From: Bacteroides sp.
GTDB lineage: Bacteria; Bacteroidota; Bacteroidia; Bacteroidales; Muribaculaceae
NCBI GenBank assembly: GCA_014802345.1
Contig: JAAVCM010000016.1
Coordinates: forward strand, 1-34,478
Direction: 5' to 3'
DNA length: 34,478 nucleotides
The notes below the pieces were generated by a model. That model was not told where the DNA came from. It was given only the letters and a program-made list of their open reading frames with translations, and did no database searches. The translations under genes and the position numbers were made by a program. Shown here piece by piece: positions 11,889 through 17,532 of the stretch. Position 1 is the stretch's first letter; each line of letters begins with the position of its first letter.

Positions 11889-12323
11889 TTAATTTTCTTT
11901 GAGCGCTTCCTGCATTTTGGCTACCATGTCGGCGTACTCCTCGTCGGACAGATAGACCTCTCCGGGGTTCATGCGGAATGTGCCGCCGTAGTCAGGTCCG
12001 TCGACGTATTTGGGTGCGAGATGGAAGTGGAGGTGCGAGAGCTTGTCGCTGTAAGCGCCGTAGTTGATTTTTTCGGGATGGAACACCTTGTCCATTGCAC
12101 GGGTCACGCGGGTCACGTCCTTCATGAAGGCGTTGCGCTCCTCGTCGGAGAGTTCAAACAGGTCGTTGACATGACCGTCGTATGCCACGAGGCAACGACC
12201 CTTATATGTCTGCTCCTTGAAGAGGAACACACGCGAAACGTCGAGCTTCGCAATCTCGATCATCAGATTGTGGAGAGTCTCATTGTTGGTGCAGTAGAGA
12301 CAGTCTTTGGGATCACTTTTCAT
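11889..12323 (-). CDS. HIT family protein
   Basis: CLYCTNNE start, terminal histidine triad LSHLHFHLAPKY. Confidence 0.93.
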   Translation of the reverse strand: MKSDPKDCLYCTNNETLHNLMIEIAKLDVSRVFLFKEQTYKGRCLVAYDGHVNDLFELSDEERNAFMKDVTRVTRAMDKVFHPEKINYGAYSDKLSHLHFHLAPKYVDGPDYGGTFRMNPGEVYLSDEEYADMVAKMQEALKEN

Positions 12324-12428: not shown

Positions 12429-12443
12429 CCTTTTCGGTGGAGT

Positions 12444-12474
12444 TTTGAAAATCGGCTATAAAGATGTATATTTG
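12444..12474 (+). promoter_or_regulatory. Predicted promoter for the MntA-like nucleotidyltransferase
   Basis: TTTG (12444-12447) - 19 nt - TATATTTG (12467-12474); ATG at 12499. Confidence 0.65.
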
Positions 12475-12498: not shown

Positions 12499-12801
12499 AT
12501 GTTTAATCCTGCCAATAATTACCTATTACCCCTTATAAGGGGATTTTTTACCACTCAGCCTGTGGTGAAAGCATGGCTGTTTGGCTCATATTCGCGTGGA
12601 GAAGAGCGTCCGGATAGTGATATTGATTTGCTTGTGACCTACGATCCACATACGCGTGTATCCTTGATGACAATTTCCCGAATGATCTGCTCTCTGTCAA
12701 AAATAGTCGGTCGTAAAGTAGATATTGTGGAAGAGGAGGGGTTGAGATCTTTTGCAAGACCGTCTGTTAATCGTGATCGCATACTGATTTATGAGAGATA
12801 G
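12499..12801 (+). CDS. mntA: MntA-like nucleotidyltransferase (type VII TA antitoxin family)
   Basis: WLFGSYSRGEERPDSDIDLLVTY carries GSxxxGxxxxxSDxDL; start moved to the internal ATG downstream of the promoter; stop overlaps the hepT-like start (12791). Confidence 0.85.
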   Translation: MFNPANNYLLPLIRGFFTTQPVVKAWLFGSYSRGEERPDSDIDLLVTYDPHTRVSLMTISRMICSLSKIVGRKVDIVEEEGLRSFARPSVNRDRILIYER

Positions 12802-12914
12802 ATTGACAGATAAAACGAGATTGGAGCATATCCTGAGTGCCATAGATGTCATACTTGATTTACGACATCCCTGAGTTGTACCCATTGATTAAGGAACTTT
12901 ACGATGATTTTTGA
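12791..12914 (+). pseudogene. hepT: Internally deleted hepT (DUF86/HEPN toxin) remnant
   Basis: 12791-12874 encodes MRDRLTDKTRLEHILSAIDVILDLRHP*; another frame at 12861-12914 encodes YDIPELYPLIKELYDDF*, which resembles a HepT C-terminus. The middle of the domain, including the RX4-6H region, is missing. Confidence 0.72.
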
Positions 12915-12926
12915 TTCCTGATTTTC

Positions 12927-12957
12927 ATTGTCGGGTGAAATAAACTTAATAACTTTG
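12927..12957 (+). promoter_or_regulatory. Predicted panB promoter
   Basis: ATTG (12927-12930) - 19 nt - TAACTTTG (12950-12957). Confidence 0.6.
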
Positions 12958-13027: not shown

Positions 13028-13849
13028 ATGTCAACATACACTGTTGAAGACCCTCGCAAGGTGACCACACGTCGCCTTATCGAAATGAAGGCAAAGGGTG
13101 AGAAAATCGCCATGCTTACCGCATACGACTATTCAATGGCCCGTCTCATCGACGAGGCCGGTATGGATGCCATACTTATCGGCGATTCGGCTGCCAACGT
13201 GATGGCAGGCTATGCCACCACGCTCCCTATGACGCTCGACCAGATGATTTATCACGCGCAGTGTGTTGGTCGTGGTGTCAAGCGTGCGCTTGTGGTCTGC
13301 GACCTTCCCTTCGGTACATATCAGGGTAATTCGAAGGAGGCTCTTGCCTCGGCCATCCGTATCATGAAGGAAAGCAGCACCGAAGCTGTGAAGATGGAGG
13401 GTGGTGCCGAAATCATCGAGTCGATAGAACGCATCATTTCCGCCGGTATCCCTGTCATGGGGCATCTCGGACTCACTCCCCAGAGCATCAATAAGTTCGG
13501 TACTTACAATGTCCGTGCGCGCGAGGAGGCCGAAGCAGCCAAACTTATGGAGGATGCCAAGTTGCTCGAAAAGGCAGGATGTTTTTCGGTCGTTCTCGAA
13601 AAGATTCCCGCTGACCTTGCCCGAAAGGTGTCTGAAAGCCTCTCGATTCCGACAATCGGTATCGGTGCAGGTAACGGTTGCGACGGTCAGGTGCTTGTGA
13701 TGCAGGATATGCTCGGTATCAATAAAGGTTTTTCACCCCGCTTCCTCCGCCGCTATGCCGACCTCGGGACCATCATCGAGGATGCGGTGGGCAACTATAT
13801 AAAGGATGTGAAAAGCAGCGACTTCCCTAACGAGAAGGAGCAGTATTAA
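13028..13849 (+). CDS. panB: 3-methyl-2-oxobutanoate hydroxymethyltransferase
   Basis: [71 protein letters not shown]. Confidence 0.97.
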
Positions 13850-16404: not shown

Positions 16405-17382
16405 TCATCTGCCTTTGCCTTTGAGTTTGTTGATTCCTTTGGCTATACGCATGAAGTTACGGCTGTTGACAAAGGGACGCATGAGCAGACTGCGGCGGTG
16501 ATAGCGTCCGGCTTCGCCGTAGGAGGTCGTATAGCGACGGCGCGTGGCGACGATATTGTCAAGAAAATCAATCAGATGTGAATCAAAATCGGTGGCAATG
16601 TCGGCTGTCAGCCTTGGTGCCGTCAGCATTTCCATATATGCCTCCGTATCATTGTCGAGATGAGAGAGAGCCGCTATGAACGCGTCCATAGAGTCGTAGT
16701 CGTCCACATTGATGAAGGCCTGAGGATTGAAATCTTTTGCGATGTCCGGCGCACCCCAATATATAGGGATGGTTGCGGCGGCAAAGGGTTCGACAATCTT
16801 TTCGGTCACATATCCCTCCACACTGCTGTTTTCAAGGGCGAGATTGAATTTATAATTCCGAATGAAAGGGATTTTCTCAGCTACGCAACCACCTATGTTG
16901 TTCCTGAACGGACCGCCGTAGGCAAGCGGACGGTAGGCATCGACAGCATCTATGATTCTCAATCTCCTCGGGTCACAGTTATAGTCATTGCGCATCAGCA
17001 GGGAGCAAAATTCCCTTCCGGTTGCCTCTCCGACGGTAAGGGCCGGAATCCTCACAGCTTCATCAAACTGATAGAGCATATAGAGTGGATAGCGCAGATG
17101 ACGTTCACCGAAATTCAGATGATGGAACGAAATGGCATAGTCGCACTCGTTGAAGTCGGGGACGTCGTTCTCACCGGTAAAATAGATTTTCACACATCCA
17201 TCGTAGTCAAGATGGTGCATGGAGTCGTCACGCGAGAAAAACAGAATATCAGGTGTGGCGGGGCTGTCGGCTGGAAGGACCGTGACATCGTGATGCGCCC
17301 GCAGCGCACTGACAAACTTATTGTTGTCCGGCTGAAAGTCTTTCCAGAAATCAACGAATTTTACGGTAACAGACTGCGGCAT
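16405..17382 (-). CDS. GT10-like alpha-1,3-fucosyltransferase
   Basis: KIPFIRNYKFNLALENSSVEGYVTEKIVEPFAAATIPIYWGAPDIAKDFNPQAFINVDDY is the GT10 acceptor/donor motif. Start set at MPQSVTVKF (17382); the longer GTG start at 17418 would overlap a likely -7 box. Confidence 0.88.
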   Translation of the reverse strand: MPQSVTVKFVDFWKDFQPDNNKFVSALRAHHDVTVLPADSPATPDILFFSRDDSMHHLDYDGCVKIYFTGENDVPDFNECDYAISFHHLNFGERHLRYPLYMLYQFDEAVRIPALTVGEATGREFCSLLMRNDYNCDPRRLRIIDAVDAYRPLAYGGPFRNNIGGCVAEKIPFIRNYKFNLALENSSVEGYVTEKIVEPFAAATIPIYWGAPDIAKDFNPQAFINVDDYDSMDAFIAALSHLDNDTEAYMEMLTAPRLTADIATDFDSHLIDFLDNIVATRRRYTTSYGEAGRYHRRSLLMRPFVNSRNFMRIAKGINKLKGKGR

Positions 17383-17532
17383 GGAAATCGGATGTGATAT
17401 TTTTTGTTGCTTGCACACAAAGATATAACAAATAGTTGATAAAATCTATATGGTGAGTGTGTTTTTAATCTCACGGAAAATGTCTAACTTCACGCTGCCG
17501 AAACCATCAAACATTATCACCCTAATAAAAAA

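Follow-up and report, generated by a model that had tools for sequence, protein, structure and literature searches.

The window, a 34,478-nucleotide stretch of contig JAAVCM010000016.1 from a Muribaculaceae genome recorded as Bacteroides sp., very likely carries a former chromosomal MntA/HepT toxin-antitoxin pair in which one internal deletion of 221 bp has struck the toxin gene, hepT, while the antitoxin gene, mntA, is intact (Table 1). In class I HEPN/MNT systems MntA AMPylates the tyrosine in the toxin's RX4HXY motif, and the RNase is thereby silenced (PMC7641770). The deletion removes this RNase/AMPylation motif and leaves the two ends of the toxin gene out of frame. Because the HEPN core is lost together with the motif, and the ends no longer share a frame, sequence and comparison show that the window allele cannot yield a HepT RNase.

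Table 1. Features of the mntA/hepT locus and its flanks in the window (positions are those of the window)
Feature	Position	Strand	Remarks
HIT-domain gene	11889..12323	-	PF01230; upstream flank common to syntenic loci
mntA promoter, likely Bacteroidota-type	12443..12474	+	TTTTG at 12443-12447, TATATTTG at 12467-12474, spacing 19 bp
mntA	12499..12801	+	intact, 100 aa; MNT-domain nucleotidyltransferase antitoxin with GSX10DXD
hepT 5' remnant	12791..12859	+	first 23 codons; beyond them the frame is out of register and stops at 12874
Deletion junction	12851..12861	+	221 bp of the hepT of G006 and G015 missing; from alignment with L003, L004 and L005; exact breakpoint ambiguous
hepT 3' remnant	12861..12914	+	last 17 codons and stop; frame differs from that of the 5' remnant
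panB promoter element (likely), TAACTTTG	12950..12957	+	motif match; conserved in alignment
panB	13028..13849	+	PF02548, E=4e-117; downstream flank common to syntenic loci

As an earlier sequence-only reading had proposed, a frame that opens like hepT overlaps mntA by 11 bp (mntA stop at 12801, hepT ATG at 12791) and stops after 27 codons (12791-12874; MRDRLTDKTRLEHILSAIDVILDLRHP, then a stop), and a second frame (12861-12914) encodes YDIPELYPLIKELYDDF followed by a stop. The N-terminal remnant shares 14-16 of its 23 residues, and the C-terminal remnant 8-11 of its 17, with the HepTs of three syntenic intact loci. No shuffle of its residues, out of 20,000, scored as high as either piece against HepT, and nowhere else in a six-frame translation of the whole window matches HepT nearly as well as these two places, which bears out the suggestion that the second frame is the C-terminal end of the same toxin. 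Neither piece alone gave a match to PF01934; only the two ends of HepT are left in the window. On DNA alignment with the intact alleles, the window lacks one block of 221 bp (73 codons and 2 nt), a gap that MAFFT sets after 12851 and for which shared residues permit positions 12851-12861, in agreement with the earlier estimate that some 70-80 residues, including the HEPN motif, were missing near 12855-12865. The deleted part contains the motif R-HVLV-H-G-Y, of which the R, H and Y are invariant across the intact relatives. A pure or programmed frameshift in hepT was considered and ruled out, as the 221 bp are absent outright. The two genes are adjacent and the toxin is disrupted, so the locus does not count as an intact pair.

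Comparison with syntenic loci between the HIT gene and panB, the check that the same reading had put forward, yielded an intact hepT in three congeners. Among the 27 genomes of the genus, MntA occurs at this position in three besides that of the window (L003 in G006, L004 in G015 and L005 in G012), and each time the next gene, with an overlap identical to that in the window, encodes a 114-115 aa HepT (PF01934, E=1.8e-16 to 2.1e-19) with an invariant R-X4-H-X-Y, both genes being intact and adjacent. The HIT gene is 92-99% identical across the module-bearing relatives. The window hepT is the same gene as the intact hepT of these congeners minus the 221 bp that include the catalytic motif. A sequence search for solved structures related to the HepT of the intact relatives returned none at E<=0.01. 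Four more genomes (G026, G001, G004 and G025) have the HIT-panB synteny without the module, and a search of these sites for module remnants gave nothing convincing; G004 and G025 hold a different gene there, by eye an AraC-type regulator. A panB tree of the genus, meant to distinguish a single gain of the module from repeated losses, has very low support at the key nodes. A locus of the HIT-mntA-hepT-panB type is also present in L082 (JAMPDC010000001.1), titled 'Staphylococcus sp. isolate NALB_7821b_12', a title that looks wrong.

The 23 codons of the N-terminal remnant have 61-70% amino acid identity to the intact homologues, which are 61-65% identical among themselves. Since the remnant is not visibly more drifted than genes that are still whole, the deletion is probably young relative to the split of these species.

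That the assembler dropped 221 bp from a genome with a full-length hepT is quite unlikely. The window genome (G000) does behave as a draft metagenome assembly, of 34 contigs and 87.5% complete, and is the single genome of its species examined, so that a local assembly error or a minority allele may conceivably account for the gap. However, the genes around the junction are intact, the contig that contains it extends over 107.6 kb, and many independently assembled genomes, including that of the isolate Xylanibacter ruminicola Ga6B6, also show loss of the toxin between clean flanks. We regard it as highly improbable that either the peptide of 27 aa or a product joining the two remnants by a frameshift is functional: the frame does use the start codon and overlap conserved in hepT, but the catalytic core is absent, lesions elsewhere are nearly all different, and a search for a relative keeping the same short ORF, which would have spoken against decay, found none. 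Deletion within a once complete pair is the preferred reading. The ancestral pair would have comprised mntA and a full-length hepT between HIT and panB; a single internal deletion would have taken the HEPN core and RX4HXY and left the ends out of frame, and mntA, its probable promoter and catalytic motif preserved, would have been left to supply free antitoxin. The biology requires this order, in which the toxin goes first and the antitoxin later or never, since a toxin that outlasted MntA would be unrestrained. The original description of the locus as toxin-antitoxin decay by toxin deletion holds for hepT, but not for mntA, which bears no sign of decay.

The window MntA matches PF01909 (E=1.3e-16, 61.1 bits against a cut-off of 21), carries GSX10DXD, a motif as defined in PMC7641770, in the form GSYSRGEERPDSDID, and is 67-74% identical to the MntA of the syntenic intact pairs; the nearest solved chain is 1wot, a minimal nucleotidyltransferase. 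The promoter proposed for mntA, called by motif match and alignment, includes TATATTTG, a match to TAnnTTTG that is retained at the aligned position in G006 and G015 despite diverged flanking DNA; G012 has TAATTTTG there. We take this promoter, from general knowledge, to be of the Bacteroidota type. From the intact mntA, its catalytic motif and this probable promoter, a free AMP-transferase antitoxin is most likely still made by the cell. The likely panB promoter element lies downstream of the hepT remnant and was thus spared by the deletion. Elsewhere in the window, a GT10 fucosyltransferase-like gene (FucT_N and Glyco_transf_10 domains) occupies 16405-17418 on the minus strand. The window genome also has a second, distant pair of the MntA/HepT type (L001, G000:C12:32923-33508), with an MntA 38% identical to that of the window and a HepT-like ORF that retains RNHIAHGYF, so that a toxin of the HepT kind is still present elsewhere in this genome.

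Many other toxin losses of this type, apparently independent, have taken place in Bacteroidales; what had been read as a snapshot of decay stands as a toxin deletion but is not an isolated case. Window-like MntA loci, 152 in all, were collected first in 397 genomes of Muribaculaceae and next in members of two genera; we left out four at contig edges and scored HepT at the expected position by means of a profile from 77 intact HepTs. HepT was intact in 99 of the 148 evaluable loci and broken or missing in 49 (33%), these counts being of loci, mostly from metagenome assemblies, a few of them duplicated or going back to a single common event. The defective loci divide into 25 with fragments or frameshifts, 16 with no recognizable HepT, and eight with in-frame stops or a lost motif. 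Large lesions, present in 39 of the 49, would not be explained by sequencing error. Among named GTDB genomes, a few of which are also in the family set, intact and defective HepT stand at 50 to 28.

The hepT lesions differ between nearly all loci and comprise deletions, frameshifts, stops and replacements. Some leave N-terminal stubs, some C-terminal stubs, some both ends with the middle gone (the window, L060 and L145), and some a stub running into another gene, for example in L121. In L121 (about 1370-2300) the hepT stub MREPKRDQGRLLDIVHE reads through, without a change of frame, into a long ORF resembling by eye a DUF1016-type nuclease, a possible gene fusion. Just 3' of mntA in L007 and L083, an in-frame loss has produced a mini-ORF of about 30-40 codons that joins the hepT start to the C-terminal helix. 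Two locus pairs (L198/L200 and L107/L097) set intact against deleted alleles; the MntA is nearly the same in both, and the sequences agree to either side of the gap. A different toxin beside MntA was considered where the HepT remnant is absent and was rejected, the ORFs there being, by eye, mostly unrelated or part of another neighboring module. In L169 and L129 a toxin-less MntA is followed within about 150 bp by a second, different MNT gene, in L129 along with an ORF of HEPN-like appearance, which hints at clustering of these modules or at replacement of one by another.

The reverse loss was not seen: among 95 strong HepT matches in the 397 genomes, contig edges set aside, none was an intact HepT without an intact MntA, and at the sole locus with a broken MntA (L250 in G301) the HepT has a stop too. 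This one-way asymmetry is expected for a toxin and its antidote.

Beside a broken HepT, MntA kept GSX10DXD in all 67 cases examined and had a stop in none, at loci that were gathered by a good MntA match and are thus biased toward intact MntA, with decayed copies hidden. The pooled MntA dN/dS was 0.063 (bootstrap 0.045-0.083) for 19 broken-intact pairs, near the 0.048 (0.026-0.067) of 10 intact-intact pairs. Ratios of this size exclude a long period of neutral drift in MntA but are still compatible with recent loss of the toxin. Deletions common to more than one species tell the two apart. In all, with the search for more of them extended to two genera, only three cross-species pairs with a shared junction were found (L227/L231, L179/L191 and L090/L091), which indicates that most losses are private, and most are probably young. 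Since the deletion that L227 and L231 share, their MntA genes have accumulated 15 synonymous and two non-synonymous differences, where under neutrality about 78% would be non-synonymous (binomial P about 1e-8); the MntA differences of the other two pairs are too few to inform. This one pair shows that MntA can remain constrained after toxin loss, a hint that it keeps a job without HepT.

We tentatively raise the possibility, which we would not yet call probable, that selection often maintains MntA after HepT loss for a toxin-independent value, such as AMPylation of a different target, or anti-addiction, in which MntA would neutralize HepTs that arrive on mobile elements or are encoded at other loci. 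The retained motif, the low dN/dS and the L227/L231 differences are in its favor, as is the match of the window MntA (best E=7.1e-20) to the PDC-S09 single-gene phage-defense candidate models of PADLOC, a match that may be relevant to MntA acting alone. Against it, the recency of mostly private losses would alone give a low dN/dS, the choice of loci by MntA match conceals decayed antitoxins, and synonymous sites of the window mntA are saturated relative to its syntenic relatives.

Among characterized systems, SO_3166/SO_3165 of Shewanella oneidensis is similar in that a GSX10DXD MNT antitoxin adjoins a PF01934 HepT (PMC7641770), and the intact relatives of the window locus likewise have RX4HXY and overlapping genes. 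In contrast to that pair, the window toxin gene lacks the 221 bp that include RX4HXY, and in the group of the window mntA precedes hepT and overlaps its start. Two surveys, one of Klebsiella pneumoniae (PMC7192599) and one of E. coli (PMC10790755), describe abundant orphan antitoxins and explain them by degraded pairs or anti-addiction; there, too, the antitoxin is kept, the toxin is lost or degraded, and synteny is partly retained. The searched text of both surveys makes no mention of HepT or HEPN. The present analysis differs from them in that the lesion is dated against homologues, and that a prevalence of one-third and the constraint on MntA are measured in Muribaculaceae. With its antitoxin intact, its cognate toxin lost, and a context common with the intact pair, the window locus is a textbook example of an orphan antitoxin left behind by a degraded pair, in the HepT/MntA family, and represents a common route of decay, not a new kind of system. 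A partial literature search found no paper describing recurrent HepT loss. What goes beyond known orphan antitoxins is the high recurrence of HepT loss, together with the hint of an MntA function without HepT.

The locus provides a clean before-and-after picture of the death of a HepT/MntA pair, and some fifty parallel cases in one bacterial family make it testable whether antitoxins merely outlive their toxins or are kept for another job. Counts of MntA genes overstate the number of working HepT/MntA systems, since about one-third of these Muribaculaceae MntA genes are without an intact HepT partner. If MntA is indeed often maintained by selection, MntA/HepT loci of Bacteroidales would regularly mature into stand-alone MntA genes.
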